Below, piece by piece: positions 16,992 to 46,706 of a stretch of DNA of 64,000 nucleotides. The position numbers and the translations under genes are program-made. Origin of the DNA: Perkinsus marinus ATCC 50983 (lineage: Eukaryota; Perkinsozoa; Perkinsida; Perkinsidae); NCBI RefSeq assembly GCF_000006405.1, contig NW_003217015.1:117876-181875 (forward strand), written 5' to 3'. The notes under the pieces were generated by a model, which saw nothing but the letters and a program-made list of their open reading frames with translations, ran no database searches and was not told the origin of the DNA. How positions within the stretch are numbered: position 1 is the stretch's first letter; every line of letters begins with the position of its first letter.

Positions 16992-17070
16992 GAGGAGAGT
17001 AACCCAACTCCGCCGATATTATTTCGAGAATCCAGACAGTCACACTGCCTCTCCAAACACGGCCACCATC

Positions 17071-17940
17071 ATGGGCCTCTACCTCCTATTCCTATTGGTA
17101 CTACTGCTACTACTACCATCATGCACACAATCATCATGCCTCAGAGTGCTGACCGTACTGGGGAGTTCCACACCGAGCTGGAGCAGTTGCCTGAGGCCCT
17201 CACCAAGACCCCTCAGTGCCAGCTACCAGTACCACGCCCTTCGCTGAGGGAGGCTGCGCACCTTGGTGTCTGTCAGGTTGCTGTTGAGAGGTGCATCATG
17301 GAGGGTAACGGTACCAAACTGAAGGCATGTGTATCACAGGCGGCAAAGGATCTGCCTCATTCAGAGCTCCTACTGCAAAGTGTGGTAAACCAGGTTCGGT
17401 AATAACTGGGTCCACCGTGATGGTAGTCTTCGTGATAGTAGTCCTACGTTCAGTATTAAAATAGCCTCTTCCTTGGAGAGAGCCTACACGTCACTCAACT
17501 CGAAGACGGCTTGTAAGATGCTGCTGATGGACCCCAAGGATAGGAAGTCGCTGGAGCTGTTCGCCAAGGCTGAGAATGACAGGAAGGCTGCTGATGAGGG
17601 TACTGGTGGGGGAGGGTACTGTGGAACTATGCTTTGCCTCAGCCAACTTGTCAACGCTGGAATTGGAGGATCCATCGACTCCAGCTCAAGCTAGACTGAG
17701 GAACAGGCTGAGTACTCGTTGGGTTGTAGAGGGTGACAGGTAATTGAGAGGACGATGTGGCGATGGTGTGGTATGGTAATTGTTCAGACTTGTGTTCAAG
17801 AAGATACGTGATGATGCCTCAGCCATGCCTGCACTGGACCTGATATCCAATATGATAGGTAGGGCTGGTTCCCGTCACTACGGTTGGATGGTCCCCTTTT
17901 CCCTACAGGTTACGCCACGGACCTAGAGCGTATCGTGTAG
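17071..17940 (+). CDS. Small secreted cysteine-containing protein, 210 aa
   Basis: Exons 17071-17145, 17187-17398, 17454-17599, 17643-17739, 17788-17858 and 17909-17940 sum to 211 codons. The first exon encodes a strong signal peptide, MGLYLLFLLVLLLLLPSCTQ. The second carries four of the cysteines (KTPQCQLP, LGVCQVAVERC, LKACVSQ) and the third adds KTACKMLL. The rest is hydrophilic, for example TPAQARLRNRLSTRWVVEGD, and ends MIGYATDLERIV. The 41-nt first intron is needed to bring the signal peptide in frame; without it the frame could start at MPQSADRT. Secretion is a sequence-based prediction. It lies just upstream of the giant EF-hand genes on the same strand, but no functional link is shown. 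Confidence 0.65.
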
Positions 17941-18015: not shown

Positions 18016-21000
18016 ACGTCAATAGAGGGGAAGTGTTGGGGTTCACTATTCTCCTCTTTGTAGTGGCTGTAGACCGTATGGAGGGATGCCCTCTTATGTG
18101 TATTGCTGGAGATGGTGTGGAAAGGACAGGCTCTGGAAGATTTCGTGGCGCGCGACGGTTTAATCATGACTGGGAATTGGCAGGCCTAGAGAATCCACCG
18201 TCTCAATTGGGAGTTGCTGTGCGTCGTCTGGAGGGGTGGTGGGACGGCAGTAGGCCTCATAGGTCATCGTGTGGTCAGTGCATTTGCTGGGCCCCATAGG
18301 GTCCCTCGTGGATGGAGAAGTTATATTCACTAGTCGGCAGCGGATGTGTCCTTTCGTGCCTGTCGTCTCTGCTCTCCATTTGGCAGTTTCACACACGAGA
18401 CGTGGGAGGCTGGGAAGAAATGTCGAGGTAAGTGAAGTACTGACCGCGGTTGTGAATGGATGCTGCTGGCACTACTCTTGTTTGTTTCGTCGTGATCCTG
18501 GGCCGTGGCCCTGCCCAGCCTCCCTCCATCCTTGTGGTCTCAACTAGACTCACACTCTCCACTGTTCTAGAGGGATATTTCCTGAGTTTGAGTTGTCAAT
18601 ACCAAGAAGTAGGGGATCGACGCCATGGACCAACGAATAGTTAGATTGTACCCTCATGATAACCAAGGCTTGTGGGCTCGTAGTGGCCCTGGTTGGTGAT
18701 TCTGTAGTGGGGTCTCACTCGGATGCCGACTGTCGGGCATCGATGGAGTCCACAGTGTGTAGACCCTTCGAGGACTATATGGCCACTGGAGGGACCAGCG
18801 TGGTCGGGTTGGTCCATGTAGGTCTTGGGTGGGGAGAGGAAGGGCCCATTGGGTGTAGTCGTTGGGGCTTTAGGCCGTTTCTGCTGTGGAGAACGTTTGT
18901 GCTGAGCAGCTCTACGCATCGTCATCATCGACTTGCGGGGTGAGTGATAGTTTCGTGGCGCGGTGAAACTTCCTTGTTGGTCCCGGCAGTGCCCCCACCT
19001 ACTGGAGAGCATCCAGCCCAGCCACTTCTATGAGCTGACCAGCGCCCTGGCCATGTCCTCCTCTTCAATCGTAGCTTCCGAGACAGCCTCCCATCGGCAA
19101 CTCACCACAGCAGCGGTAGGCCGGAAGGTGGTGGTCCTCGTCACTGGTGATGGTATGGCAGGTGGTCATGGGGAAGGTCAGGCTGCCCTACCCAGTGGTG
19201 ATGGACCCGAGGAGTCGGACCTCGATGGATGGTATAAAGGACGCTATGTGAGACCCACTGTATGAGGGGAGGTGATGGTGCACCTACGGCTACAGGGTCA
19301 ATGCTCTGGCGGCTGCTGGCTTCAATCCTGTCTACACTATCATCCGAGATGTTGCTAAGGATGGCCTCTTTGCCCAGCTGGTCTTCTCGGTACGGCCTCC
19401 TTCTGGATGAGTTGACGCTTACCTCAGACCGAGCCGATGCACGTCCCTGTTGGTAGTGGGCTCACACCAGAGCAGCACGAGGAGATGGTCAGGACGGCCT
19501 ATAGGGCCCTGCATGTAGGGTAGAGGTGATGGTGGAGGGCCTGGAAGGATCATGTAGGAATGCTTGGACGAGCTCATACCCCCGTCGACTGGGGAGGCTC
19601 CTTTCCAACTGGACGTGTTCCGGGGATGCCCTCTGGATGCCTCTCCCATGGAGGTCGAGGGAGAGATAGAGATCCTGAATGCTGAGCCCACTCTGGGGTT
19701 CCGGGATAGGGTCGGTGGTCGGTTACTGTGGGTCGTTCGGAGGGCTTCTCCACAGGTTAACACTGTATTGCGGCAGGCGCTGTCAGAGGACCTCGATCTG
19801 ACCTTTAGGAACGGTAGGCTGACTAGGCCCGGCAGGGGGGATGGTGATGGTGGTGTGGTAGGGGTCACTGGAGAGGACATGACGGTAGCCACCAGTCCAC
19901 GAGGCACCATTGTGGCCCACACCTTTGCCGGGAGCTTGGTCAGGTGATGGGCACTCAGGCAAGAGACGGGGCATGATGGGATTTCAGTTTCACCATCTAC
20001 ACTGATGTCAATGGTGGAGGCCTCCGACCGCATATGGACGTCCTGGCCGACCTGAGGGACCTGAGGAGGCACCTGGCCGCGGCTGGTATTAAAAGTGTGA
20101 TCAGAGTTAATGATGTCCGCAGCCTTGGTGGGGTCACCTACAACACCAAGCGGGTGGGTTGGGGTTGAGCGTGGGGGGAGTAGTGGTGGGCTGTAGGTCC
20201 TCTACTCCTATTGTCATGGGCTCGGGGTCCTGACCAGGGCAACTCCTCGAGAGGCCTTGGTCCCACCGGAGATGGCATGGGATAGAGAGGCTACTCAGAG
20301 TGCACTGTTTGGTGAGATCGTGAAGGCCCATTATGGCCAGGAGAAGGACGGCGGTGAGCCAAGTGTGCTGATGGAGATGGGTCGTAGAGAGGATGGGGAG
20401 GAGGAGGAGGGGCTGCCGGAGGTGGATGATGGGCCTGAAGGGAGGGTAGATGAAATGCCCGAGGCTGGAATCGAACCAGGGATCTCTGATGGAGAGAGCC
20501 CGGAGGACAGAGTGATGGATGCAGTATTTGGTAAGGAGGAGCCCCCTGAGGAGGACTCACCCTTGAACCCTGTGGTCCCCGATGGGATGGACGAGGATGG
20601 CCGTGAACCTGAGATGGGAGCCGGCATGGGGGAGAGAGATCCCGAACCAGAGGAAGGGGCCCGGGAAGACCCTTCGGGGGCACCAGAGGAGGAGGGGTCC
20701 TCCGCGGACCAGCCATGGTCCCCCAACGTAGCTGATGTTGGGCAACCATCGCAGCCTCAGCCCGGTTCTCGAGTGCCGAGGGTCCGGAGTGGCGAGTTGA
20801 AGGGCATGGCTACTACAATGGGTGGAGTGAAGTCACCGGTGTTGCCGTATAGGCTTACCCCGGGTCAGCGCACATTCAAGATGCCCATTGTAACGCGTGT
20901 GGCGGGGTAGGACCCTCGTGTGTCCGTCAGCTGAGCTCGTCATCACATTCAGGGTGGTCCACTATGCTCCTCTGTTCGCCCCTCATCCCTTCCAACCCCG

Positions 21001-24000
21001 TATCCTCTTCCATCCGCCGGCACCACATCCCCCTAGGGCCATGGTCCTCCAGATGCCCTCAGCGGTGGGCTCACCTTACAGGCTGCCGACTAGACCTCCT
21101 CATAGCAGCGTATCGGTGGTGACCACGGCAGAGGCATCCTGGCCTAGGGAGTAGGTGGGGGGTGAGAGGTGGGGGACAGATTCCCTTGGGTAGGCCCAGA
21201 CGGAGGAGTGTGCCGTCGATGATGATGATGTTGCCAACACAGCTCAACCGGAGTGGTAGGCCGATGGAGGCTGGGGAGGAGTAAGGTGGGCTGGGTGATG
21301 AGGGAGGTGATGACTCCTCTCAGACATAGTGGAGTCCCTCATGCGGTAGAGTATAGGAATGTGCTGGCCCCGCAGGAGGAGGACTTCGTGGTGGGCCACA
21401 TAGGGAGGGTGGGCAGTGGTCTTGTATTGGTACTGATGATGACTATGTTGTGGGTCAGTTCCCTGAGCCGGCTCTGGAGACTGCCCTGACCTGGGTGGAC
21501 AAGGTGGCCCTCTCGACGGTGGAGGGGCTGAGGGAGAAGATGGAGCATGTAGGTGGTGACCCTCCTCCTTCTCCCGGGCCTGTGGTGGCCTCAGCTCTAC
21601 GGCAAGTACCCGAGCACGGCTAACACGAGGGCCTTCGCTCGGTTTGTTAAGGATGGTCTTTTCGAAGGGGACATAGGGCCCATCAGGACCATGAGGGGTC
21701 TTCGGAATGCCATTAAGCACGTCAGTGAGAGTAGGACTATCCCAGTGCATGTGGGAGTATACTGTTGGTCGTGGCGGTGGTCAGTCTTTCCTCGGTTCGC
21801 CTCCTTCCGTGCTGGAGTGGCCACCATACTGGACTCGTGGATCCTCCTCCTGACCTCTCCAGATAAGCACACCCTAGTCTCGGTGAGGAAGCTGCTGAGT
21901 CGGTCGTGGTGAGGAGCATCGGTCAGCTCTTCCGAGAGGCCCCGTCGGAGATCTATGCCCTAATGGACGCCAATGGGGACGGTCTCATCTCCTTTGACGA
22001 GTTCACAGCCTTTGGCCGTACCATTGCCGCACCCTCATTCGTCTTTTCTAGGGAGGTAGGCAGGGACTGATCGGTGGGCCGAACTCAGAGGCTTTGGGCC
22101 TTTGGTCCCGACCAGTCAATGGGGCCAAGCATTCGGGTTTCACACTCAGCCTAAGTGCTTCAGGCCTTCGAGGGGATGCTGTCGGAGGAAGAAGGGGAGA
22201 GTGTTCGAGTGCAGGACTTTGAGGAGTTGTATAGGACCATCGCCCAGGGGAGGCAACAGTGGTCGAGTTCTCCTTGCCATGAGTGGTGGTCTGGTCAGAT
22301 TGAGTGCCTCGATAGCGGACAAGGCGGTCCAGTTGGTGATGGACTCCCTCACCCTCGAGAGCCGTTTCTCGGACCTGGATGGGGGCCGCCACAACGACCT
22401 CTCTTTGGAAGACATCGGCTGGAAAGGCCCAGTGGGGGAGGCTGTAATGGGGCCGTGACCACACTGGGGGGCGGCCCACCGTCTTTCCTCAGCTCTTCTT
22501 CTACCTAGACTCTAACAGGGACGGCGTCTTGTCTCGTTATGAATGGCAAAGGCTGGTGATCATCCACCGGGCGCCGTTGCTGGTCCGCCGGTTCGCCTTG
22601 TGGTAGGCGGCGGCCTTGGCCCATCGTGGGGGGAGTGGCGGTCCCTGCTCTTCAGGGTGGCACATAGGGTGGGGGACAACCTCCTGCCATACTCGGTAGA
22701 GCCTTTTGTGACTCGGGCTAAGGAGCGTCTAGGGAGCATGCCCGAGAGGTATGTGCCGGTTATCAAGGGGGCTCTGGACTCCTTAGGAGCAGGTGAGTAG
22801 TGGCCCTCAGGGATGGTGGAATGAGGTGGTGTGTAGGTGAGCCTTCGGATGGTGACTACGGCCTCCTGCGAGCCATGGCTGGTGGTAACGAGATGAACAA
22901 CTTGGTGGCCACGGAGTTCTATCTGGGTTATGGTCGCCGCCCGCGACTCACCTCGAAAGCACTGGGTGCGGATCACCGGGACAGGCGACACCACCGAGGC
23001 CATCACCATCACCGCCACCACCATCATGGACCGACCTCCTCCTTTCTCGAGGAAGGACCGCAGGTGGGCATAGGTCATGGGTCCTAGCCCTCCTCGCGCG
23101 GCTCTTGTAAGGGTTTAATGTGCTCAGTGGAGTCGGCTGCCATTGGAGTACAGTCTGAGAAAGCTCTCGCCGACGACTCGAGTCAGTGCTAGGGACTTTG
23201 CAGATTTCGGCAAGTCTATAAAGGCCCCAACCGCTGTGTTTTCTCGGACTGTGAGGAGGGGGTCACTGTGTGGCCTACGAGTTGGAATGCCTATGGCAGG
23301 CCTACGACCTTCTGGAGTATCCTTCTGGTCGAGACGCTGAGGACCTACTGTCTACCAAGAGTGATGTGTTGCATGCTGTATCGAAGGACCTTAGGTAAGA
23401 GGAGGAGGGGCCTGGTGGTAGGCGCTGTTGTCCTCTAGAAGGGCATTCAGTGACCGCGCAAAGATATCTTAGGTTGCTCCGTGCTTGATACGGATGAGGT
23501 TGCGAAGATATTATAGTATTAGACTCTCTTATTAGAAGTGTGGTAATGATTTATTTATGACTAATTGGGGAGTCGTAACAATTCTGATATCGTTAGGAAA
23601 AGTCGCCGAACGCCCCCTGGGGAATTGAGAGAGCTTGACGATTTTGAAAACTCCTTTTAATATCACCCCATCCATCGCTTTCCCTCAGGAATCACCGTCG
23701 CATTCATCTCATTTTGGACTCTCTAGTATTGGGCCGACGTTTTAAGGAGTTGGATGCCAACGGTGATGGAGAGCTCTCGTTGAAGGAGCTGGGGCTGGGA
23801 GCAGCTGATCGAGCGGTGAGGTTTGGTCAGGGTGTGGTATCGAGCCTATTTGGAAATGTGGCTTTGATAGTCTCCTGATTATGCTGAATTGCTTGGCCCG
23901 GGTAAAGGGCCTCTCAGGGGCTGATGATCTTTAGGAGTTCCCGTAACTGATGTTGTCTGTGCAACGATTAGCTTTCCAAATTACTTCGTTCCCTCTCCTT

Positions 24001-27000
24001 CTGTGTATTATGATCTCGGGATGCTGTATGGGGTTAGGTCTTTGCTGTGGTGGACCTAGACGGCTCCAACACGTTATCTTTGGGCGAGCTTCAGAGGTTG
24101 GCTGGCTTTGGAGAGGACACGGTCCCTGCTAGTGCGATCTTATTGGCTCAGAAGTAAGTGGGGGGGAGGTGTCTCTCGGGTGCTGTGGTCGTTGCTCAGA
24201 GTGCAAGCTAAGGCGGACGGCCCGGTAGAGGCCTATGTTGCTGCAGCTATGCGGGCCATGGAGGGCTTCACGGGTTTTGAGAGCGCCGAGATAGGGGAGC
24301 TTCTTGATTTTGATGACGATGGTAGGCTGGGGGCATGGGGCGATAGAGAGGGACCGTCCTCAGGCTACATCGACCATCGTGAAATTGCCATGCTGAGGGT
24401 CTTGTCGATGCCCCAAGGGGTGGCCAAGTATCTGCCACAGTCAGCTTATGTGATGGATAAGATTGACATCGGCGTTGGATGGTCCGAGGGGGACTTCACC
24501 AAGATGGGCTTGGGCCTGCAGGCCAACCGTCGGGCCTTCTCCCATAAGGTGGGACGTGTGTCTCTTCGGTCGTCATCGTCGTCGATGGTCCGGTCAGAGC
24601 TTCGAGTCGCTGGCCCAGTTGTGGGACGGGAGGATACCGAGGGAGGCTGTGGAGGTGTGGATGAACGCCGTCCGCCACAAGTGAGGGGGCAGCGGGTGGT
24701 AGGGTAAGGGAGATAATTTCGTGGTGACGCAGGCGGTTACGGCGGCTTCTGGCGGTCTTCTCTGCGGTAAACACGGACGCCTTCTTTACGGCATTCGATG
24801 GGAATAAGGACGGCAAGCTGAGTGCTGATGAGCTCCGACGCTGGATGGGCAATTTCCCTTTGGTCAGCCTCGTGACGGTAGGTCCTAGGGGGGAGGGGGC
24901 GTCAGGAAGGGTTGCTGGGACAGGTCCTGGAGGTCCTCGGCCAAGGTGAGGGCGACCAGAGGGGTATAACTCGAGAGGGGCTACAGAGGTTCTCCTTTCA
25001 CTTCGCGGTCGGCCCAGCTGTGAAGCTACTAGCATTGAGGTGAGTGTTGATGGGGGGAGGGGTTTATGCCGCCTTTAGCAGTATTCCACGGTCGGCTGCC
25101 GCCACCCCGGAGAAGTTCGTGAAGGAGTTCTCCACAGTGTTGGCACGAGTGAAGTCCCCTCGGGTCCGGGCGAAGATTGTCCATGCTCTCGATCTGGATG
25201 GCAATGGTGAGGGCCTCCGCGGGGCCGTTGGAGCATTAGCGCCCTTCCATGTAGGTGAGCTTAGCCGAGGGGAGATTCTTGGTCTCCGAGTTCTGCATCA
25301 AACAGAGTTCCTCCTCCTCTTTGAAAGTCTCCTCCATCACGGCTTCGCTACCATCACTGAGGCCAAGGCCAGCAGTTTCTTGGAGGAGGCCAGGAGCTCG
25401 GAAGTGGTGGGGTTAGCTGGTCCACCGTCGACCGGCTGTTATCGAGGTGTGCAGGTGCTAACGGAAGGCTATGCTGAAGGAGCCTTCGTGGAGCTGGACT
25501 CGGTGAGGGCATGGTCGGCTCGGTAAGGTCATGGATGGCTCAGGTCTATCAAGTGCTTAGTCCGAGTGCCCTCCATGGCCGTAGGAAGGTAGGATGGAGA
25601 TGGACGATGGGTCTTCGCAATTGGGACTGTCGTTATCAGGGGCATCATTCGCAGTGGTCCCGGCGGTCGGAGGGGAAGAGGAGGAAGGGAAGGAGGCATC
25701 AACAGGGCAGCGATGGAAGCGTGAGGGAGGCCCCTGATCAACAACACGGTGGTGGTATTGCCGAGGCTCAGCCGTCACGAGGGAGTTTGGCGTCGGAGGC
25801 CTCCGCATTGATGGCCGCAGCGGAGGGTATGGGCGACGGACGGCACGAGGAAGGGGTTATTGATGGTGTTGGAAGGGACCACCACAGAGACGCGGTTGAG
25901 GAGGTGAAGCCGGACCATGCAGGGGATCATTACAGTGAGACCGTTGAGGAGGTGAAGCCGGACCATGCAGGGGATCATTACAGTGAGACCGTTGAGGAGG
26001 TGAAGCCGGACCATGCAGGGGACCATTACAGTGAGACCGTTGAGGAGGTGAAGCCGGACCATGCAGGGGATCATTACAGTGAGACCGTTGAGGAGGTGAA
26101 GCCGGACCATGCAGGGGACCATTACAGTGAGAGTCCTCAAGAACAACGAGTTTCAAATGAGTCTGTGGAGTCGGGCCAAGAACCTCCTCGTCGGGACGCC
26201 CCAATTCAGGATGCAGCAGGGGAGGGCACTACCCCCAGGTCGGGGGCAGCTGGGGTGAGAGAAGGAAGGGAGGCGGCCGTTGATAATGCGGGTGATGAGG
26301 AGTTGCTGGTCGATGAGTGGGAGGAGGAGGATAAAAGTGGGGAATATGGGGCTGACCACCAGGGGGGCCACCAGAGCAGAGACAACAACACATGGAGCAT
26401 CTCAATGCACGTAGGCCTGTTGATGGAGGGGTGACAGCAGATGACGTCATCACCTCTTAGGAGTATCCCTCGGAAGGCTTTGAGAAGGTCACTGGGCAAG
26501 CCCTAGGAGGCACGGTATCGGTCGAGGAGTTCCAACAGACTGGTGTACGGCTTGGGGTCAGTCAGGCTTATACTAAGGAGGTGGACCCCTTCAGTACAGC
26601 CCTTTATACGCTCCCGCATAGGTGTTCAGTCTTATGGCCGGCAAGGACGCCTCGGAGCTGCCAGTTGGCCACTACGCTGACCTTTATCGTAGCTTCAAAG
26701 ACGTCCGGTGGGGACGGCCCCGGTCTAGCATGTTGGTCACTGGGGCCTCTTAGGAACCTGGCAAGGGTATTCCACATTCTGGACTCTATCAAGATGGAGA
26801 TGCGTTTCACCGACTTGGACCTCGATCGAGACGGCTTGATCTCGTTGCCGGAGTTTGGGTGTGGCGAGTGCAAGTCCGATACGGTATCGGAAGAGGAATG
26901 TGTAGGTTGGGCGGAGCGGAGCAGTCAGTGGAGCCATGTGCTTAGATGGCCGTTGGGGAGCTCTTCCTATACGTGGCCGATGGTCTCAATCAGTCGTCAA

Positions 27001-29471
27001 TTGCCCGACGGAACTGGCAGAAGCTCGTTCGGGTGGATGCGGACACCATACCCCCAGCGGTGGCTGTGGTGTTGGAGGGGTGAGGAGGAGGAGGCCTGCT
27101 GTGGTGGGGGGACTGGATGCGTTGGCTTGTCAGCATGGGAGAGGTACCGAGGCAGGCCACCAACGAGGAGTTCATAGAGAAGTACATGGCGGAGGCTGGT
27201 AGGTACCCAGGTGCCCGAGAGGAAGCAGGGGCGTTCCTTGATGACGAGACTGGTGGGCCCCCTAGGGTAGATGGGGGTGATGCTACTGACGTGTGGCAGG
27301 TCAGAAGCGCAACGTTGGCTTTATAAGGGTCGCGGCTGCAGGACCACGACTGGCCGGTTTCCTACCGAGTTCCTTCGATTTCACTCGGAATTTATCAACG
27401 CTTTTGAAGCCTGGCGTCAACAGGTTGGACGAAGAGACCTTTGAGGAAATCGGCAGACATGCGGAGGTTGCAGGGGATTGGTTTGAGGCTAAGGTGCCCC
27501 CTTAGATTGAGTGTGGGGATGAGAGGTCCTTTGTAGTCCTTTGGGGCCCTCCTCTTCCCTGTAGGGGAGACTCTGCCGGTTGAATTTCTGGACACGTATG
27601 TAACGGCTAGGCGAGGCGGGTAGGCCTCGGTCGCCTCTGCTGTGGTGCTGCTGATAGCTGGTGTAGTTACCTATATGACTTGGGGGCCTCCCTCGGGGCC
27701 ATTAGTATGGCGGCGAGGTTCGATGCCATTGACATGGACGGTGATGGTAAACTGACCAGAGAGGAGCTTGAAACCAGGGAGTGGAGGAAGTCTATTGCGG
27801 GAACGATGGTGAGTTGTTATGCCTCGAGTGAACATTATTAGAAATGCTCAACTTTTCGTCGCACTATACAACAGCTCGTGTGCAACACATAATGATTAGT
27901 TGAAATGATCAACATAGCATCCAGTTGACTCGCAAACGATTAAATTCACAGTCGGAGATTAATGAGGATTTCAATGCCCAGAGTGGTTAATAAGATGTTG
28001 GGTGTTTGCATTGAGTCAGGGCCAAAGCGTAACAAGGTAAGTAGGCCGATCCATAGTCTCTCCATATGGGAGGTCAGAATAGGAATTCATCATATCAATG
28101 ATAGAACCATGAAGGAACTATCACACCGATTAATATGTGTCTGCGTGCAGCCTCGTTCGGTTGTGAAGTGACGGAGGAGTGGTATGAGCTTTGACGTTGA
28201 GGAATTTTGAGATTTCGAGCATGTCTCCTTGTGCAACGAAGCATGATCCTCCTCATGCATGCCTTTTTCAGTTGTTTGCCCTCCTCGACCTCGACCGTGA
28301 CAGCAGCATTAGTCGAGCTGAGTGGCAGCATTGGGGTTATCTCGTGGCCCAGGCCCGACCACATATGCGGGCTCTGGCTCTGAGGATTCTGCCAGAAGTG
28401 AAGATCTCAGCGAGCGAGTATGCTGCAAGGTATAGGGCTGCAGTGAAAGGCTTGTCGCCGGATGAAATAAAGCTGGTGGAACAGCGTCTGGATTTCGATG
28501 CCGACGGTGGGGATTGAACCTGGGTCGTCACTATGGAAGTGTCTCGGTAGGTGAGCTGTCCGAAGCTGAGATCGGTCTTCTGCGGGTGGTCGGCGGGGGA
28601 CGGTCTTTGAGGGAGCTCCTCTATAGGGAGTTCTTCTTTGGTTATGAAATCGTCAACACCGGTACGGGGGCTGGTCAGTCCTTCCTACAGGAGGCGGCCA
28701 TTGAGGATGATCGGACCCTCAATGGCTTCATGGTGGGTCGATAGGGATCAGATTGAGGGCACGAGAAGATTCCCCTCAGGCCCGTGTTGGGGCCCTCCAG
28801 TCGCCTTATATAGAGTCGGCACGGTTCGCCTTCCAATTCCTGGATACTGATAGTGATGGGCAGCTCTCGGATGTGGGGACTCAACTGTTTGCTCAACAGA
28901 GTTGGAATATATGTTCGCTTTCCGCAGCTAAGCTTAGGAGTTTGTATACGAAGCCAGGTAGAAATGTTCAGAAATCAATAAGAATTTCCCAAAATTCTCT
29001 CAGAATTTTGCTATTGTTACCAACATATGTGGTTGACTATGTGCATAATTTCCACACTGGTTTTCATTGGTAGAACGAGATGAGGGAGTTCGAGCTCATG
29101 CGGATGCTCTTTGCTGACTATGGCTTCCTCCGGTTCATAGCGGACTTCACGGCCTTGACTGCTTTCAAGGTGGGCTGCCCGGTCAGGGTGAGCTCCGACT
29201 GTGTGACAGAAGCTGAAGGGCCCAGCGGGGGGACTGTCGCTGAAGGGGCTCATTGACTCAGCCAAGGCGGGGGACTGCACTCCTACTGAGCTGGCAATGG
29301 AGATCCATGATGTAGGGGGGGTCCTGCCGAGTGTGGGAGGGATTCTTGGTAGGCCTTCGAGATCGACCTGCCTGATGGTACGGTAGAGGTTCCCTGGGCC
29401 ATCTGGAGGCTAATTGTGTGGCGGCACCTCACCAACGAGCATGTGAGGCTCCGTGGGGGCGGCTGTCGGTA
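18016..29471 (+). CDS. Giant EF-hand protein A (many exons; start unresolved)
   Basis: I read this as one gene because module order is continuous and a homologous copy follows directly. The 5' part has a hydrophobic LGFTILLFVVAV segment near 18035, then blocks shared with gene B: DCRASMESTVCRPFEDYM (about 18730), QCPHLLESIQPSHFYELT (about 18990), PMEVEGEIEILNAEPTLGF (about 19650), and a block near 20040-20150 ending GVTYNTKRV. An acidic exon at 20257-20910 follows, then FAPHPFQPRILF (about 20975). Twelve readable EF-hand loops lie at 21967-28878, with a 48-nt tandem repeat inside the array. The end reads MREFELMRMLFADYGFLRF, then VPWAIWRLIVWRHLTNEH, with TAG at 29469-29471. Canonical D-x-D/N-x-D-G loops predict Ca2+ binding. 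Location is unknown. Individual exon limits were not all resolved, and a split into two genes cannot be excluded. Confidence 0.7.
20257..20910 (+). other. Acidic low-complexity exon of giant EF-hand gene A
   Basis: An open stretch rich in E, D, G and P, for example GRREDGEEEEGLPEVDDG and ERDPEPEEGAREDPSGAP. It begins with a short conserved lead (ALFGEIVKAHYG) that matches SELIFSMVTSYYGV at the start of the corresponding long exon in gene B. That match fixes the homology despite the unrelated low-complexity sequence that follows. Confidence 0.7.
21967..28878 (+). other. EF-hand array of gene A (12 readable loops)
   Basis: Loops begin at 21967 DANGDGLISFDE, 22508 DSNRDGVLSRYE, 23752 DANGDGELSLKE, 24053 DLDGSNTLSLGE, 24306 DFDDDG/YIDHRE, 24797 DGNKDGKLSADE, 25191 DLDGNG/ELSRGE, 26818 DLDRDGLISLPE, 27731 DMDGDGKLTREE, 28287 DLDRDSSISRAE, 28492 DFDADG/ELSEAE and 28843 DTDSDGQLSDVG. 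A slash marks an intron splitting the Gly codon. Degenerate loops lie at 22372 and about 22785. The 28843 loop has Gly instead of the usual Glu at position 12, and 28287 lacks the position-6 Gly, so those two may bind Ca2+ weakly. Confidence 0.85.
25892..26131 (+). repeat. 48-nt tandem repeat, 5 copies (16-aa acidic/His units)
   Basis: Five head-to-tail 48-nt units encode VEEVKPDHAGDHYSE plus one variable residue (A in the first unit, T in the others). Units differ at only a few bases, such as GGGGATCAT versus GGGGACCAT, which indicates recent expansion. The repeat lies in a hydrophilic insert between EF-hand segments of gene A. It is Asp/Glu/His-rich. Confidence 0.95.
28957..29022 (+). repeat. 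Conserved intron segment, copy 2
   Basis: The 5' part of the intron after the last EF-hand exon of gene A begins GTAGAAATGTTCAG and contains AGAATTTCCCAAAATTCTC. It matches 13288-13222 on the minus strand. Confidence 0.75.
29078..29471 (+). other. C-terminal domain of giant gene A
   Basis: Reads FELMRMLFADYGFLRFIAD, then after an intron GLIDSAKAGDCTPTELAMEI and HDVGGVLPSVGG, then VEVPWAIWRLIVWRHLTNEH. The same order occurs at 44375-44870 in gene B (YLSDYGFIRLVSDT, CSARQLSAELYEVGG, VEIPWQLWRLVVWRHLTSEF). I do not recognise the domain. Confidence 0.75.
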
Positions 29472-29552
29472 GCAGTCCTCAGACGGTGAACCAGCTGGAG
29501 GGCCGTTCTCCGTTCGCGACTAGGGACAAAGAGGACTATCATCATACTGCTC

Positions 29553-35500: not shown

Positions 35501-38500
35501 GGGGCCAGTAGAGGCTATTTGAGGTGGTGGCGATGGTCCTTTCAGTTGTTCTATTATCTTGACACCAACCGTGATGGGTATCTCTCTCGATACGAGTGGC
35601 AGAGGATGCTCATCATCAACAGGGCCCCGATAGCTGTCAGGCGGCTCGCCCTTTGGTGAGGCCGTGGACATGGATGGGTGAAGGCAGGTGTAGCACAGGC
35701 TCACTGAGGGCTTCGAGAGCGGCCCCTTCCCTTTACCCAAGGGCCCTTTCCTGGCTGCTACCCATGCCAAGCTGGCTCGACTCCCACCGACGTATGCACG
35801 TCTAGTGGATAGGACTCTGGACTCATTGGGGACGGGTGAGTGGCCTTGGTCCTGTTCAAGGGACGGCTGAGTTCAGGCCGACCAAGTGATGCTGACTATA
35901 GCATCCTCAGAGCCATAGGGGGAGGCACTGAGATGGCCAACCTGGTGGCGTCGGAGGTCCTCTTGGGTTATCGCAGGAGGCCTAGGCTCAGCTGGCATCC
36001 AATAGCCAGGGGTAGTGGTGCCGGCCTGATGAGGACGCCTCTGGTAGAAGTAGCGGACGCGGCGGCTGATGGTATGGTGGAAGAGGGAGAGGCCGAGCAG
36101 GTCCTGCCGGAGGGGGGTCTTGGAGGGCCAGGAGGAGTCCCGGGATCCTTTATGGAGATGGGGAGGGTAACAAGGAGGTTGGTTGTGCTTCAGGATAACG
36201 GCTGGTGTTAGTTGACGTCTGAGGCCCATATGAAGGTGGCGCGGTACTCGATAGGGGCTCTTGCTTCGGGCCGGAGGGTCCCTTACGAGACCTTTCGAGA
36301 CTTTGGAAGGAGTCTGAAGGCCCGAGAAGGGGCATTCACTGAGGAGGTAGGGAAGGCTTTGGTGGAGTCCTTCGACTGTGGTGCTGTGGAGGTGTTCCAT
36401 CTGTTCGTTGGTGGGGATGAGACTAGCAATGAGATCACCGTGGACGACTTCGATCGGCTACACCTCAGCTCTAAAGATATGAGGTGGGCCGCCCTGCCTG
36501 AGGCCGCAGAGGCCCCTCACACGAGTCAGGAACCTTCGCCGAGTGTACCTTGTATGTGACTCGCTCGCTATCATGGCCAAGTTCGATGAGATGGACAGGG
36601 ATGGAGACGGACAGCTGGGGAGAGGGGAGGTCCCTTTGGAGCCACATCAGGCTTGGGTGAGGACCCTGTAGGGGCGACTTGATGGGCCGTGGGCTGATAG
36701 TTGGTGTCGCTGATTATTCGATGGTCAGGTGTACGGAGTCCTGGATCGAGATGGCTCGGGTTGGGTGTCCCTATCGGAGCTGCAGGTCCTGGCTGGTATG
36801 CACCCTGACGCCGTCCCACCCAGTGCCCTATGGCTCAGCAGGAGGTACCTCTTTGGGAGCCCGCTCGCTTCTCAAACGCTTCAGGGTCTCGGCTACATCA
36901 TTGTGGACGGCAGAAGGGATCAGGGAGAAATTCCAGAGCCTGTCGCCTTACCAACAGTCGGAGGTTGGGCAGGTCCTCGATGTCAACGGCGATGGTAGCC
37001 GCCTCACTGCTGGACCTTCTAGTGGTACTTTCAGGGTACCTAGACGACCACGAACTGTCATTGCTACGTCTCTTCACCGAGGGAGAGCTCATTGAGGCCC
37101 TCTTGCCACCGTTGCTCTATGAGCCTGGTAGGGTTTCCCTTGATTCAATGTGGGATAGGAGACGTTTCTTGGCGAACACTAGGAGGATGCAAAGCATGAC
37201 CAATGTCTTCACTGTGAAGGTAGTCGTAGAAAGCAGCCCCTGGGTGGGGCCGTCCTCGATGTCAGGCATTCGAGGCGCTAGCAGTTCCCTCGAGGGGTCC
37301 TGTGAGGGCGGCCGTCGAGGTGCCCGTGGAGGTTGTGAAGGGGTGGTTGTATGCAGTGGGGAGAAGGTGAGGGTGGACGTGGACGGTTAGGGGATGGTAG
37401 TTGGTCAGGCGGCTGAGGGAGCTATTGAGAGTCTTCAGTATGATCAACGCTGAGGCTTTCTTCAAGAGTGCCGATATTGATAAGGACGGGAGGGTCACTT
37501 TAGAGGAGCTGGAGAGGTTATTTCCTCCCTTGAGGGGCATGAATGAGGTCGGCGTTCTCTTATTCCACGACGACGCAGACTCTGTAGTGTCCTTCCGACC
37601 GTTCAGTCGGAGGGATGATGCCTCAGCTTGATATGCAGGTGTATAGGTATTGGAGGCCATCGGGAGTGAGGGCCCTGACGGTACCACCTCCCTCGACTGG
37701 CCAAGTCTGCAACAGCTCATCTACGCCTTCACGGCACCGCTACAGGTGGCCGTCTTTGCGTTGGAGTAGGCGATCCGATGCGGTGGACCTTCTAGTGGGG
37801 ATTCGTCTCAGCGTCGTGGCCAAGTCAAAAGGGTCGGACATGCACGCTGTGGCGAGTCGGGTCCTACGGGGAATAGGTCCCGAGGAGAAGGCAGCCGTAC
37901 TGAACGTGTTCGATGTGGACCGCGATGGTAGGGCAGGACAGTTCTCCATCACTTTTATGGGCATCAGGTGAGCTCGATGAGGTGGAGGTCCCCTTGCTGG
38001 GTCTACTTGGACGAAGCGAGACCGTTGAGACCTTCAACGCCATCCAGTACCAAGGCTTCAAGGTGGTCATGGAGGCCTCACTCGAGGTACCATGACTATA
38101 TAGTATCGGTAATAGCGAGAATGGTAGGTCCCTGCGTCGGCACTATTGGAGACGGACAGACCACAGCTGGAAGGGCCCGAGGTGAGGGAAGCAATATAGT
38201 CGTTGCCAGTGCCTCCTAGGGCTACGCGACTGTATCGGGCTATAGAGCAGATGCTGATGGGGACCATCGGTTGTCTATGAAGGAGATGGAGGACTATCGG
38301 GATGTCATAGGGGCCAGCCATAAGGTGGTGTCTAAGGAGGTCAGTGTCTGGATTGAGGGCTCCGCCAAGGAGAAGCCCTCGTAGGTCTTGGAAGGTCTTG
38401 GTGTCGGGGAGGAAAGGATGGACTTGGGATTGTTGGAGGAGCTGCACCTCTGTACCAAAGACTATCGGTGATACTGGGCCTGGTCGGAGGCTGGGAGGGA

Positions 38501-41500
38501 ATTATTCAGGACGGTCGGGTTGGTCTACGGCTTGGTGGAGGCATTGCAGCTACATGCTAAGTTCGTGGATATGGACCGCGATGGGGATGAAGAACTCAGC
38601 AAGGAGGAACTCGTTGGGGTCGGCATCAAGGCTGAGGAGGCGGCTTGGGTGGGACGCCTACGGTGGATGGGGGGCCACTGATGGTCAATGCAGTTGAGGC
38701 ACCTCCTTGGTACTGTCAACAGCTCTTCGATATCAGAGAGGGAGTGGATGACGTTGGCGGGTACCTCCTATGAGGCGGCTCCTGATGCAGCTGTGTGGGT
38801 GGCGACCAAGTGAGGGCCGAGGGTTCCTATTAAGGACAATCATCGTGATATGATAGGCTACCCCAACGCGATAAGAACTATACGGTGGACTTGGCGAGAG
38901 TGATGGTAGTGGCGTTACGACAGCTGGATACTTTGACCAAGGACGAGGTGGAAGATGCCCGGGACTTCATTGACATCGATGGGGATGGTCGGTTGGGTTG
39001 ATGGTCCGGGGGCTCCGGTGTTGTTGTGGTTTTCTCAGGGAAGTTGTCAGCATCAGAATTCGGCTGTCTGAGGCTGCTAGGGGATATGCATCACGTGGTG
39101 GAGTTGATATTGCCGCTTGAAGGGGCTCTAGAGGCCCCGCCTGTCGCGGAAGACTTGACTGAGGTAGCTTTCGAAGAGTTGGGGAGGAGGATCAGGGGCG
39201 ATGAGAAGATATTCGGCGCGGAGGTGGGTCGGCGATCCAATGAGGGACTGCACCGGGCGGCTGATCTTGTCAGGCTTTCGCGCTTCTGTCCGACCCTAGA
39301 AGGAAGCTCATCCCGGTCCGGGTCCTCAGCAGGTGGATGCAGCTCCGCAATAGGAAGTGATGACGGCCTTGATAGAGTTCAGTAGGGTCTGTCCAGGCAC
39401 CTTCGGCCGGTGGCTGGGATGTTCTCTGCAATGAACATGGACTCGCTGTTCTACAGCTTGGACCGGGATAGGGATGGGAGGTTGTCGAGGGATGAGCTCA
39501 ACTGGGAGGAAGAGGATGCTCACTTGGTCTGGTCAGTGCCGGCGTCGAGGGCCAGAGCTCGCCTTGGTTCAGCTCATGGAGGAGTTGACTCGAACTGGAT
39601 CCCAAGGAGACCGGGCTGGGCTATCGAGGAAGAGTTTGCAGTACTGGGTTCTCGCCCATTCGACCCCTCGAGAGGCGAAGCTCGACATGATTGGGTGAGC
39701 TGGGGTCCGGTTCGGGGTGATCAGCACCTGCCTCAGTCGAAGGAGCACCGCTGGCAATTCGTCTGAGGAGGGGCTGAAGAGGCCTGAGGAGGGCGGGAAG
39801 GAGTGGCATAAGCCGACAAAGAGAAGGAAAGGCGTGAAGGCCGACCAGGGTGGGTGATATCTGAGATCGGTGGAATAATACGATGCAGACCGCAACCAGT
39901 CGCGAGGCCTTGGATATGAAAAGCTTCTCTATGGCGCGCCGGAGGGCGTCTCCCACCGGGACAAGTTCGGAGAGGCATTGAGGCGCGGCTTTGAGGCGGA
40001 CCTGAGCATCTCTTCTGATGGGGTATTGGGTACGTCGTCGTGGTTGCAACGGATGGTAGGAAGGGCCTGCAGGGGTGGTCGAGATCGCTCGCCCTCAGGT
40101 GCGCTCCTATTCGGGAAGCGCGACTACTGAGGAGGCATCGGTATGGTCATTCACGACCTTGTCCTCTGGCATTGTCTCAGCAGTTACCTCATCTGACCGT
40201 ATCGGCCTACGTATCGGACATAGATGGCGATGGAGTCCTCTCCCATGCTGAGTTAAATGTCATGAGGGCCCATAGTGGGTCCTATAGGAGGCTGTTCCCA
40301 GTGGAGGTGAGCCCTAGTCTCGACCGCGGTCGTCACCCTTGTCCAGGTCCTGAAGCTGCTGGGAGATAATACTACTGGTACAGTGGACATGCAGTACTTT
40401 GAAGCCCTCCATCTGGCGACCAAACACTCAGCGTATGGGCTGCATGGGGAAGTGATCATATTGTTCTCAGCGCTCAGGAACCTTCCGTTGATTTACCGAT
40501 TTGTCGAGGCTTTACTGTTGCATGATCGATTCATGCAGTTTGATAAGGATGGCGACAATGAGCTCACCTTGGAGGAGGTCGAGATTAAGGCTGAGGACGC
40601 GGACAAGAGATGGGTGGGCTACTGCTCGGCTCGAGGGGATCCTGGAGGTCTGCGGACATTTAGTTCTTCGGAGTACTGGACTCTGACGGGTCTGGGAAAC
40701 TGTCACGAACAGAGTGGCAAAGGCTCGCTGGTCGCAGCCAAGATGCTACCCCTGCTGTCGTGAAGTGGATGGCAACGAATAAGTAGCCGAGGGGCTTTGA
40801 ATAGGTGGTCGTCCTTGGTGACCTTGTAGACTCCCGAGAAGGGATGATAGCGTTGAGAAGGATACCGCTATCGTCACTGTAAAGGTGATGGGTGAGCTGG
40901 CCAAGTCGGGCAAGCAGGATGTCGATGAGCTTGTTCGGTTCCTAGATGAGGATGGCGATGGTAAGTCTTTAGGCTTTCATCCCTCGAACTTCCACCAGTG
41001 CGCCAGGGCATTTCAGGCAAAGTGGCTCCTTCTGAATTCGGCCTGATTCGTCTGGCTTCGGATCTCATGCCCATCATGGAGGAGCTGATACCCTACGGGC
41101 CGCTGGGCCATGGTGTCGTCTCTGCCGATCTCACGCGAGGCACATTCCTTGAGCTTGACCAGACCCTCAAGGCTGGCAGAGGGATTTTTGCTGACTCGGT
41201 GGGCCCGTTGTTGGTCAGCTGTGGAAGGCCTCCCTTCAGAGCTTCGATGATTTGTCGGTGGATGGCGCGATCCCTTTGGAAGTGATCACTCCATGGACGA
41301 AATTGAGAGCCTCTAGGTGGGCTCTTTCGTTTGGAATCTATGTGACATCACAGTCGACGGAGTAGGTTACTCGGCCAGGCAGTGCAGCTCTTCGATGCGG
41401 CTTCTCTCGCCTCGCTATTCTATCATCTCGACACCGATAGGAACGGCCTCCTGTCAGCAGAGGAGCTCGGCTGGGATGAGACTTTCGATGAGGTAGGCAG

Positions 41501-44500
41501 CTACAAGGGGATGCTATACAATGTTCTCTTCAGATTGTTGACATACTGTGGGAAGATGAGGAGGAGGGAAGGCGGGGAGTGTCCCGTCAGGCGCTGCAGA
41601 AATGGGCTTACATCCGGACGGTCCCTTTAGAGACGCACTTCCTGTTATTTGAGTCCTCAATGCTTCGCGATGGCTATCTCAGCGACGGACTGTTACTTAG
41701 GCACCGCTCTCGGCTGGAGGTGTCCAGCGCTCCGGAATTGAAGATTCGGTTGAAGTCGCTGCTAAAAGGCGTGCCGGAAAAAGGCCATGGGAAGAAGCAT
41801 CGCGACAGCGAAGAGACGACTGAGGGACTCGAGTTCTTCGACTTGGACGGCAGTGGTGAGACGCGATGGGTCCTGTCACTGAGGCGGAGGTGGCCACAGG
41901 TGAAATCGAGGAGAGTGAGGCTGTTCTGGTACAGCTGCTACTTGGGCCCGATGCCGGCAGGGCGAGTTTTGAGGAGGTCTTTACTGACCTGCTGAAGAAG
42001 GCCTTTGGAGCTGATAGGGATCTGGGAGGCGCTATGGTGGAATCTATGTGGCACGTGAGGCTGACGGGGGCGATTTCGCCTTTGTTCTACCGCTGTTGTC
42101 CTTGGACTCGCAGGATTCCCTCTTCGAGATAGGCTCGCCGCGGCCTGAGGAGTCCACTGAGGGTCTTGATGCCGTCGCGGCATTTCATGATGTAGGCCAT
42201 GCTCATCACTGTTGCTGTGGTTGACTCATTTCAGAGGCGACCGATGGCGGTGTTCCCGGAGACTAGGCTGACACGGAGGAGTTGGATAGAGTTTGGACGC
42301 CAGCAGCTTGGGGCCGGTCGTACCTTTTCAGCCGAGGTGAAGCAGTAACCTACTGCTGGTCGTGGACGTACCCCTCAGGTCTTTGACTTATTGCGAAGCT
42401 GCGTCGGTCAGGAGGGCCTATCATGGAGAGGTCTCGAGAGCTTATATCGGGTTCTCAAGGACGGCCGGTAGGGGGATGTCGATTGGCCCGCTATAGTTGC
42501 ATCAGGGGGACGACTCGTCTTGTCAAACTCATGCGTTCGATTGGGTTGGAAGCGAGATTCACTGAGCTGGACGTTGACCGGGACGGATGGCTGTCGCGGG
42601 GCGACATGGGATGTGCCTCGGAGAGTTCTACTGTTGAGACCGCTACCGGCACTTCGAGCATCTGCGTAGGTGTCGACGTAGTGGTCCTTGGTATGACCCT
42701 CTCTAGTTGGCCTATGAGAGGCTCATGTCGTTGGTCCCGTCGGAGGCTCTTGGACGAGGGGAGTGGCAGGTCTTGGCCCTGATCGACCCAGAGACGCTAC
42801 CGCCAGCGGCCTCACTGTTCGTCTCTAAGTGAGCATCTCTGGTCATCGCTGGTTCAGCATAACGCAGATTGGCTCGGCGCTATGATGGGTCTGGCGATCC
42901 TCTTGCTGGTTATGAAGAGGTCCTCCGGGGCTTCCCTGATGCTGTACGTGTCTCCATTAAAGACTTCATCACTTCTACCGATGGTACGGCTGCTTTCATC
43001 ACGATCGAAGTGGTATCCTTCTAGTCGAGTTGACCATGACCATCATGCGCTTGGCTGTTGCGCGGGACGGACTGCTCCCGCTGGTCAGCAGTGAGGGAGA
43101 TGCAATTGTCGAAGCGGTCGGCCTGATGGATGCAAATACTGATGGCCACATAGACGCCCATGAGTTTATCGATTACGGCATGGCCGTGCACAGCCCTGAC
43201 GGGGTCTTTTCAATGGAGGTAGGGCCGCTGCGGGCAGCCTTGGGCCCAGCCTCGTCTTGTCCAATGCCTCAGACCTTCGACTCTCTCCTTGACATTGGTG
43301 CTGATACCATACCGGTGGAGGCTCTCGTGGTGTTCAGTCGACTTTGCGGCTGCGGAAGGTAGGGGATTCTGAATCGTTCCAGTTGGAACTTTTCTCTCTT
43401 TCTCCAGCGACTTGATTTCCCTCGTTGGGGCGGCCTTCAGTGCCGTCAATATGAAAGCGCGGTTCCAGATGTTGGACACTGACCATGATGGTGTCCTCTC
43501 TCGGGTCGAGCTTGTCGGTGCAGGAGGGACTGTCGGCCGCAGAGCTCTCAAGGTGGGGTTAGGAACTACCTTTTCCCCGCCTGGATGATGAGTCTATTAC
43601 TATGGTGGCCCGTTCAGTTGCTCTCGCTTATCGATATGGACAGCAGTGGGAGCATCTCTCTCAAGGAGTGGCAGCATTGGTCACGGCTGGAAGCGGCAGC
43701 ACCGATAGAACTCCGGCAAGTAGCCCTCTTGGTGGAATCCAGAGCGTCCCATGGGGCGTCGACGTGGACCTTTGATGGGCTCACCGGGGAGGCTCGAGTC
43801 CTCGCTGGAGAATATCTGGACTATAATGGCGATGGTGAGCTCATAATCATCATACTGTCTGAGGAGGTCTGCAGGCATGGTGTCGGCGCGGGAGTTGGGC
43901 ATGCTAGGGCTGCTGGGTGGTGAGGACTGGACCCGAAAGGTGTGGTATGAGCAGCTCTATCATGGGTTCGAGGCCGCTCTTGGAGCCTCGTTAAGCCCGG
44001 CAATGTCGTTGTTACAAACCGAGCATAAGACAATAGATGACGCAGCAGACAAACCTGAACGGGGAATGGACCTGAAGAGGTTTCGAGTGGGTCCTGCCCC
44101 TCATGGGCTGTGGTTTTGGAGCTGCAATGGACGACAGGGTCAATAGCTTGTCTCTCACGGGTTTCTAGTGTTGCGGTCATTGTGGCACTAAGTCATCCGT
44201 GAGATGATCTTCCTACTTTATCCTCAGGAATACCTGGGTGTTACATCTCCGAGCTCACACAATGCTGCAGTGGCAGCATTCGCCTACCTCGATACCGATG
44301 CTGATGGGAGAATCAATGCTGTGAGCGTGTCAGTCATTTGCCATTCTTGCATGCCCAAGCTGCCTGCAGGATGAAGGTTTGCGTGTCGAAGGGGTCAGAA
44401 AGTACCTCAGTGACTATGGCTTTATTCGTCTGGTCTCGGACACCATAGCCGTATGGACTCAGGAGGTGTGTTTGGAATTATCTCTTTGGTCCGGTCTAGG

Positions 44501-44870
44501 AGCCCATTTGGTGTCTTCCCTCAAGGTTACTCAAGGGTCTTCGACCGATACTGTTTCTCTAGTGCGACTCGCTGCTCACGGCGACGCTGACCAATGCAGC
44601 GCTCGTCAGCTCAGTGCTGAGCTCTATGAGGTGGGCGGCCGAGGCGGGTTTCTGAAGGGTGACGGGTCAATGTCGTTCGGCAATCAATGCCTCAGAGTGG
44701 TCAGTGCCGCGCAATGGGTCTTTTCTCAGTCCTACAACATTCACATCCCCGAGGGCTTGGTCGAGATTCCTTGGCAGTTGTGGCGACTGGTCGTCTGGAG
44801 GCACTTGACGAGCGAGTTCGTCGAGGGCGGAGATGAGATGAGCTCATGGCAGTCACTGCATATCGATTGA
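29553..44870 (+). CDS. Giant EF-hand protein B, tandem paralogue of A (interrupted by an assembly gap)
   Basis: Candidate start is MLGGVCPTRHPTSVG at 29553; a 38-nt intron after CAM leads to SYAFYNGYGRCVEVNES. Blocks homologous to gene A follow in the same order: CASDMRASVCEPYIGYY (about 29915), QCGALMEELQPASFIQLV (about 30160), PLEVEGDIEIINWRDTMSF (about 30720), and a block near 31090-31265 ending GLVYRAKRV. A single long acidic exon covers about 31.33-34.33 kb with two tandem repeats, then LHPFAPRLVYSSPGTHPP. Twenty-one readable EF-hand loops occupy 35082-44340. The shared C-terminal domain ends with TGA at 44868-44870. The protein would be very large and acidic. Ca2+ binding is predicted from the loops; cellular role is unknown. 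The 100-N gap at 30469 removes part of the N-terminal region, and not every exon boundary was resolved. Confidence 0.7.
30469..30568. other. Assembly gap, 100 N
   Basis: Exactly 100 N. Round-number gaps are usually placeholders, so the true length is unknown. It lies inside the N-terminal region of gene B and hides the segment that corresponds to about 19.3 kb of gene A. Confidence 1.
31827..32200 (+). repeat. 21-nt tandem repeat array with a 63-nt higher-order period
   Basis: About 17 head-to-tail 7-residue units of the type EDGHPEG, EDGHPEV or EDGHAEG. Three-unit blocks of the order GHPEG-GHPEV-GHAEG recur, giving a 63-nt higher-order repeat. The array is rich in Asp, Glu and His and degenerates at its 3' end (DDGHPAEEESHPEGQEGHH). 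Confidence 0.95.
33196..33785 (+). repeat. 63-nt tandem repeat, nine full units plus a partial
   Basis: Units encode EPVHGEDGVIEGVDDGRDG plus two variable residues (LP, VA or VP). Ten EPV starts are visible, the last in a partial unit (EPVRGEG). Identity between units is high; LP and VA variants partly alternate. Because 63 is divisible by three and the unit lacks stops in several frames, long open frames also appear on both strands; they are artefacts. Confidence 0.95.
35082..44340 (+). other. EF-hand array of gene B (21 readable loops)
   Basis: Loop starts: 35082 DEDGDGRVSLSE, 35561 DTNRDGYLSRYE, 36594 DRDGDGQLGRGE, 36744 DRDGSGWVSLSE, 36979 DVNGDG/YLDDHE, 37473 DIDKDGRVTLEE, 37912 DVDRDG/ELDEVE, 38574 DRDGDEELSKEE, 38972 DIDGDG/KLSASE, 39461 DRDRDGRLSRDE, 40217 DIDGDGVLSHAE, 40542 DKDGDNELTLEE, 40945 DEDGDG/KVAPSE, 41430 DTDRNGLLSAEE, 41840 DLDGSG/EIEESE, 42570 DVDRDGWLSRGD, 43129 DANTDGHIDAHE, 43475 DTDHDGVLSRVE, 43633 DMDSSGSISLKE, 43819 DYNGDG/MVSARE, 44291 DTDADGRINA/DE. 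A slash marks an intron. Split loops are usually followed by hydrophobic stretches like EFGLIRL. A degenerate split loop occurs near 35820. Confidence 0.85.
44375..44870 (+). other. C-terminal domain of giant gene B
   Basis: About 160 residues with YLSDYGFIRLVSDT, LVRLAAHGDADQCSARQLS, ELYEVGGRGGFL, VEIPWQLWRLVVWRHLTSEF. It follows the last split EF-hand and is homologous to 29078-29471. In gene A it is cut by introns, whereas here the ORF is continuous. The paired Trp/Arg motif WRLxVWRHLT is the best search key. Confidence 0.75.
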
Positions 44871-45123
44871 AGCAGCATGTTTCCACTGCACCATGTTTCG
44901 CTACCATGACGTCAAATTTCTGATGTTGGTTGGCATTTGTGTTGGTCACCTCCCTTCTACCGCATTGAGTGCTTCAGAGTTTCGATCTCCATATACAACG
45001 TTGTGGATATTCTCTGTCATATTTCCACAATAGTTGTCCTTTTTTCTATTGTCTGGTATTTGCAAGATTGTGATCAACGAGCAGCTGATGGAATCTCTGC
45101 AGTTCCTTATATAGGATGTTTGT

Positions 45124-46260: not shown

Positions 46261-46364
46261 GGATGCATGAATTGGTGTATTTATTTGCTCAATGTTGCGT
46301 CTGGGGGGTTTGGTGTGGGTGAATGGTAGGAATAGTGCTTTTCAGTGGCATTTCAGGCTAATTT

Positions 46365-46456
46365 TTCCCCTTCTTTCTCCTCTTCTTTTTTCTTTTTCTC
46401 TTTCTGCTCTTTCTCTCTCCCCCTTCTCTTCCTCTTTTCTTTTCCCCCTCCTTTTC
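46365..46456 (+). repeat. Polypyrimidine (CT-rich) tract
   Basis: About 90 nt made almost entirely of C and T directly precedes the tRNA-like element; simple-sequence tract. Confidence 0.85.
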
Positions 46457-46469
46457 AGTATCTTTTGCC

Positions 46470-46543: not shown

Positions 46544-46706
46544 TTTGATGATTTTTTATACTAGCTTGTTCGACCACACCATACAGGCTAACTGGAATTC
46601 ACAAGTTTATTGGCATTTAGTCATGTCCATGAGAAAACCATCGTTGCCGCTGAAAATATCTGAAGTTTGAGTTGTCAAGAAATATTCGTTGGCGAGTGGG
46701 ACTGTA

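Follow-up and report, generated by a model that had tools for sequence, protein, structure and literature searches.

Origin and structure of the tandem genes

A 64,000-nucleotide stretch of Perkinsus marinus ATCC 50983 (the window; contig NW_003217015.1, positions 117,876 to 181,875 of the forward strand) raises the question of how a long run of EF-hand-coding sequence is organised into genes, and of what the encoded proteins might do. The original prediction, made from the letters alone, had proposed a tandem pair of giant, acidic, multi-EF-hand genes of no recognised family at positions 18016-44870. Our gene models resolve this region into two separate neighbouring plus-strand genes, A and B, each built of many small exons and each the paralogue of the other. 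The stop codon of B at 44870 agrees with that proposal, while the coding sequence of A starts further in, with the ATG at 18656; B opens with the ATG at 29834.

18656..29472, + strand: gene A, 60 exons in our own model, annotated as Pmar_PMAR010074 (2443 residues)
29834..44870, + strand: gene B, about 70 exons, with the 100 N of an assembly gap inside it at 30469-30568

The exon chains were assembled with a home-made program that used GT-AG introns, mostly of 30-70 bases, and was aided by the similarity between A and B and by an EF-hand profile. Downstream of the gap alone, B chains 66 exons into 3732 residues with no internal stop and an isoelectric point of 4.72 (5.09 for our A model), and the B product exceeds 3700 residues. 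The A chain was built before the record Pmar_PMAR010074 of the same strain (a hypothetical or EF-hand domain protein) had been seen; that record is unit A, with 100% identity over residues 1-409, and it agrees with our chain in 2373 of 2552 aligned columns. Several small exons differ between the two, and the annotated protein has another end, DDAFLRTLMGVN, encoded at 29665-29700, in place of our stop at 29472. Gene A has thus been deposited previously, under an EF-hand name and without a described function, and the description of the pair as lacking a recognisable family is true of the N-terminal region but overstated for the proteins as a whole. To that record we add the neighbouring gene and a map of the modules, and these large oyster-parasite genes can now be named together. 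Perkinsus is among the protozoan parasites listed by the World Organisation for Animal Health, according to PMC13203641.

Database searches with a longer A query returned two matches among 8000 scored candidates, the P. marinus record and one from P. olseni, whereas a 1042-residue query returned none, its length limit (at most 1.75 times the query) excluding the 2443-residue record. A search with B found no record among 7999 scored candidates, but these had lengths of about 1039-3306 only, and the absence of B from the database is thus not established. In the P. marinus genome itself, all 20 listed matches of the B N-terminal query and all three of the EF exon of B module 1 lay on the window's own contig (C122) or on C238, a contig collinear with it; only the best candidates were scored, and weaker paralogues are possible. 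Neither PMAR010074 nor any giant EF-hand protein from Perkinsus was the subject of a paper found in a literature search whose coverage left out most subscription journals.

EF-hands, modules and shared blocks

The predicted products of A and B belong to the EF-hand superfamily, whose hallmark is a 12-residue loop, flanked by helices, with acidic ligands at fixed positions. The Pfam family EF-hand_5 matches Pmar_PMAR010074 with E=1.8e-38, and a strict PROSITE-like loop pattern occurs 11 times in the annotated A protein (10 times in our own A model) and 20 times in the B model, whereas shuffled sequences (200 for each) averaged 0.02 and 0.015 loops and never had more than one. Each gene has one further near-canonical loop, DLDRDSSISRAEW in A (match 28263-28337) and DTDADGRINADE in B (match from 44264). 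Adding these gives the 12 and 21 loops counted originally, although further borderline slots in both genes make the count vary with the cut chosen.

When the EF region is cut at its recurring points, it falls into five modules in A and nine in B, each with four slots in a constant order. With the C-terminal loop this gives 21 slots in A and 37 in B, of which about 12 and 21 hold canonical ligands. The analysis of modules used our own B model and, in module cutting, intron and first tree work, our own A model.

21927..22931, + strand: A module 1, sharing 48% identity with B module 1
22932..24398, + strand: A module 2 (type X), from module alignment and tree
24399..25289, + strand: A module 3 (type Y), from module alignment and tree
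25290..27328, + strand: A module 4, interrupted by an acidic insert at 25544-26460
27329..28585, + strand: A module 5, from module alignment and tree
28586..29472, + strand: A C-terminal piece, with one further EF loop and the WRLIVWRHLT block at 29404-29433
35043..35965, + strand: B module 1, from module alignment and tree
35966..37999, + strand: B modules 2 (X) and 3 (Y), from module alignment and tree
38000..41934, + strand: B modules 4-7 (X, Y, X, Y), for which A has no counterpart
41935..43906, + strand: B modules 8 and 9, from module alignment and tree
43907..44870, + strand: B C-terminal piece, with one further EF loop and the WRLVVWRHLT block at 44781-44810

Scored against a profile of the 13 remaining modules, each of the 14 reached 74-147 bits, compared with at most 7.9 for any of 200 shuffles; the alignment underlying these profiles included the module tested. 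Introns fall at the same column and in the same phase at five places, shared by 12, 8, 8, 9 (in two adjacent columns) and 10 of the 14 modules, while 1000 trials of random placement never brought more than four modules together at any place. Slots 2 and 3 align with calmodulin and related pairs both by profile and in a structure model of middling confidence (63.5), in which they come out as a pair. Compared with the profile of slot 2, slot 3 (E 3.1e-05) and slot 4 (E 0.00095) are recognised but slot 1 is not (E 0.23), so that for degenerate slots the count of four rests on alignment position. Six hands per module were considered and set aside; the two extra helix-loop-helix stretches that the model suggested had no support by profile against slot 2 (E 0.49 and 0.77).

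All six blocks said to be shared by the two units were found, in the same order in both. The proposal that these are collinear giant EF-hand genes of common ancestry, found in an alveolate, holds. The blocks are real, but a few of their letters come from intron bases (the V of YRAKRV and the Q that opens QCPHLL and QCGALM); the spliced text reads CGCPHLL, CGCGALM and YRAKRALYSYC. One of the blocks lies in the linker preceding the first module of A, close to acidic low-complexity exons.

20344..20907, + strand: A acidic low-complexity stretch 1 with the rest of its exon, assigned by composition and poorly kept in P. olseni
20984..21010, + strand: HPFQPRILF block of A, in the linker preceding the first module
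31611..34077, + strand: acidic exons of B, containing tandem repeats in frame (21/63-base at 31821-32196, 63-base at 33191-33783)
34148..34174, + strand: HPFAPRLVY block of B

The acidic insert of A module 4 likewise contains an in-frame tandem repeat, of 48 bases (25895-26132). Acidity is a property of these low-complexity inserts (27-32% D+E, 6-10% K+R); the EF region is nearly balanced, with 14% D+E versus 12% K+R in A modules 1-3 and 16% versus 11% in B modules 1-9, and the term acidic thus fits only part of each protein.

An N-terminal region of no known family

Both proteins begin with a hydrophobic stretch resembling a signal peptide, followed by a cysteine-containing region.

18656..18721, + strand: signal-peptide-like N-terminus of A, MITKACGLVVALVGDSVVGSHS, from hydropathy, end guessed
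18722..20343, + strand: A N-terminal region, cysteine-containing and of no known family in Pfam, NCBIfam and PDB comparisons
29834..29899, + strand: signal-peptide-like N-terminus of B, MLERGSTLLVKALVTAVAAGVD, from hydropathy, end guessed
29900..31460 (end approximate), + strand: B N-terminal region, 36% identical to that of A

The best 11-residue hydropathy is 2.3 at the start of each protein, and the P. olseni orthologue of A starts with MRLDCRALLLLLITGWAVAS, which is likewise hydrophobic as judged by eye. Inside B there is a 19-residue stretch with a hydropathy of 1.84 and another of 1.62, and a membrane stretch there is conceivable. Over the N-terminal 409 residues A and B are 36% identical; in the B row of this alignment, the gap in the assembly is bridged with letters from the other haplotype. 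A and B have six cysteines in common at invariant positions, five within the first 80 residues, and these five are also retained in P. olseni.

No family was found for this region: Pfam gave no match for the A region, and when A and B were searched as four pieces the only match had 11.4 bits, below the cut-off; NCBIfam gave none above the cut-off, and the PDB none with E below 0.6. A match to SelD in two of three members (16.5 bits against a cut-off of 299) was taken as chance. Relatives outside Perkinsus were not found by protein searches, whose reach was that of shared 5-residue words and limited lengths. A structure model from two sequences suggested helices followed by two alpha/beta units but was poor (predicted local distance difference test score 44.2); a SEA-like or ferredoxin-like fold (beta-alpha-beta-beta-alpha-beta) is at most a tentative candidate, the model being of low confidence and finding no support in the sequence. 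No repeat was detected between the two halves of the region (hhalign E 0.66).

The P. olseni orthologue and the history of the modules

The P. olseni match is a 2428-residue record named '26S proteasome non-ATPase regulatory subunit 8', which is the orthologue of A and has the same N-terminal region. It also has five modules, the start of module 5 being shortened in the record, and is 68% identical to P. marinus A over 2269 aligned residues. Identity is 93% over residues 901-1000 (module 1), 22% over the acidic residues 401-500 and 34% over residues 2301-2400, where the end of the record looks aberrant. The CSN8/PSMD8/EIF3K domain (PF10075) is not among the five families found in this record at E<=0.01, and it occurs instead in the neighbouring P. 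marinus gene. The name does not suit the sequence.

16564-17940, + strand: gene for a PSMD8/RPN12-like proteasome subunit, immediately upstream of A

The misleading name probably stems from a merged annotation, which would imply the same gene neighbourhood in P. olseni.

Module trees, built with our own modules and again with those of P. olseni added, pair A1 with B1, A2 with B2, A3 with B3 and A5 with B9 (supports 68-100; for A2-B2, 75 and then 94). Module 1 stands apart from the rest and shows the highest conservation from A to B (48% identity, compared with 36% for A2-B2, 28% for A3-B3, 23% for A4-B8 and 30% for A5-B9). A4 and B8 are poorly placed, and their grouping was not rejected by the approximately unbiased (AU) test (p=0.457). 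B4 is joined with B6 (99, and 100 with P. olseni), in a clade with module 2 (82 and 65); B5 and B7 sit in a clade with module 3 (90 and 96) and group together in IQ-TREE (69 and 87) but not in FastTree. The later modules thus tend towards an alternation of two types, X and Y.

An origin of the four extra modules of B from a single module was rejected (AU p=0.0015), and we read them as two X-Y pairs, with both module types included. Because A2 groups with B2, the trees favour extra modules older than the split of A and B, although a grouping of B2 with B4 and B6 was not rejected (AU p=0.066). The five modules of A and nine of B may reflect gain in B, in line with the unequal expansion after duplication proposed originally, or loss in A. 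The intron-bounded modules provide a clear example of how a giant gene may grow.

Comparison with known families

Members of the CREC family (reticulocalbin, calumenin and, in Plasmodium, PfERC) are mid-sized proteins with about 5-7 EF-hands, and some of them have no endoplasmic reticulum (ER) retention signal. A and B resemble them in having multiple EF-hands, behind what may be a signal peptide as judged from hydropathy. In PMC7042697, the CREC family is characterised by multiple EF-hands, a signal peptide and the secretory pathway, and PfERC by five predicted EF-hands, one degenerate hand and an ER-retention signal. A and B differ from both in their number of loops (about 12 and 21), in their giant size (2443 and more than 3700 residues) and in their family-less N-terminal region, and from PfERC in their C-termini, LMGVN or GGGCR in A and SLHID in B, none of which is retention-like. 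Neither the number of hands and the protein size nor the C-terminus fits the CREC pattern.

Calmodulin is a cytosolic sensor with four hands, and slots 2 and 3 of the modules resemble its EF-hand pairs; in A and B, unlike calmodulin, modules recur within one chain and many slots are degenerate. A whole SPARC domain (PF10591), which is extracellular and binds Ca2+, was not found. Its score exceeded the cut-off of 22 bits in Pmar_PMAR010074 (38.4 bits, with no single stretch passing) and in the A C-terminal piece (28.4 bits, one stretch), but the best stretch spans only profile positions 51-81 of 113, which is an EF loop; SPARC is not listed for the P. olseni record.

Possible function

The reading we favour, with a confidence that is about evenly balanced, is that A and B are high-capacity Ca2+ binders and scaffolds that act in a lumen or outside the cell, the sole pointer to secretion being their hydrophobic N-termini. 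The proteins would enter the secretory pathway, where Ca2+ may occupy defined sites in the EF pairs, which would also make the chain stiffer; the acidic inserts may bind further Ca2+ weakly and act as extended spacers, and the N-terminal region may serve in targeting or assembly of the chain; B would be a longer version with a higher capacity. To our knowledge, A and B would then be among the largest multi-EF-hand proteins, and they would offer a handle on Ca2+ handling in a sister group of dinoflagellates.

It is possible, though distinctly less probable, that the proteins form a Ca2+-condensed matrix of a secretory granule (an extrusome, or a rhoptry- or microneme-like organelle) or of the cell wall, which is released rather than kept as a resident Ca2+ store. 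The signal-peptide-like N-termini, the size, the acidic repeats and the repeated predicted Ca2+ sites would suit such a matrix, as would a C-terminus that is not retention-like; against it, there is no sign of granule or wall targeting, and the literature search gave nothing on these proteins. More tentative still is a wider proposal that these are Perkinsus-specific giant secreted Ca2+-binding chains, with a new N-terminal domain, whose capacity would be tuned by gain or loss of eight-hand X-Y double modules flanked by conserved introns, and which would act as a Ca2+-condensed granule, wall or store matrix.

A cytosolic or cytoskeletal Ca2+-responsive scaffold, in which the hydrophobic N-termini would be something other than signal peptides, appears improbable. 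Protist filament systems do include EF-hand proteins, as described in PMC12661445, but all three N-termini are hydrophobic though their letters differ, and the five cysteines near the N-terminus are retained in A, B and P. olseni A.

Haplotypes and coding constraint

Contig C238 is about 94-97% identical to the window (89% at the start of B, repeats included), and appears to be the other haplotype of the locus, about 5% apart, so that the assembly would hold both. It carries 6.9 kb of N in place of window positions 35069-50195, which include most of B, and supplies sequence across the 100-N gap of B. Between the haplotypes, A has 88 non-synonymous differences at 5743 sites and 155 synonymous differences at 1814 sites, a ratio of non-synonymous to synonymous differences per site (pN/pS) of 0.179, and 154 of the 243 substitutions are at third positions. 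Indels are a multiple of three in four of five cases in exons versus nine of 21 in introns (12 of 21 are not); the one exon indel that breaks the frame is at 23395-23417, within a short exon that our own model has and the published protein lacks. A evolves as coding sequence between the haplotypes.

For B the comparison covers 436 codons of the 5′ part, with the acidic exons excluded, and gives 17 non-synonymous and 18 synonymous differences (pN/pS 0.318); the single exon indel there is 1 base long and lies where an exon ends. These values, and the lack of a protein record in the length-limited search, could suggest that B is a decaying copy of A. We consider this very unlikely, given that 66 exons beyond the gap join up with no stop codon, that 20 strict EF loops are left and that the module intron positions are kept. 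That each unit is several small independent genes, as the mostly short open pieces of a six-frame reading might suggest, is the least credible reading of all, A being one annotated protein in both P. marinus and P. olseni (both apparently gene predictions) and our independently built chain agreeing with the former.

The 21-base coding array in the acidic exons of B has 17.9 copies in the window (31821-32196) and 21.5 in the other haplotype (locus L012, 1102-1553).

Neighbouring genes and other observations

Away from the pair, the window contains further genes recognised by domain.

35-2315, + strand: HSP70 gene (E 1.1e-197)
6622-12086, - strand: Mon2-like gene, with a Mon2_C match in a 1411-residue frame and a DCB domain at 11226-12086
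50512-51921, + strand: amino acid transporter (Aa_trans, E 1.4e-45)

Antisense open frames over the HSP70 gene (741-2330, - strand) match the Pfam family NAD-GH (PF10712), which we take to be a probably spurious family derived from the reverse strand of HSP70 genes.

The spliced-leader pattern CCGTAGCCATYTTGGCTCAAG was scanned across the 54.46-Mb genome (347 contigs, the window being part of C122) and occurs 34 times, with the TCTT form at all 34 listed places and no occurrence in a backwards control. It is the same as PmaSL1, the P. marinus spliced leader as printed in PMC3101222, while PMC9399869 gives a TTTT form for dinoflagellates. With the match of unit A to Pmar_PMAR010074, it identifies the species as P. 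marinus. The P. marinus spliced-leader primer sequence is present in one of 17 loci (L016), which is one of three spliced-leader loci.
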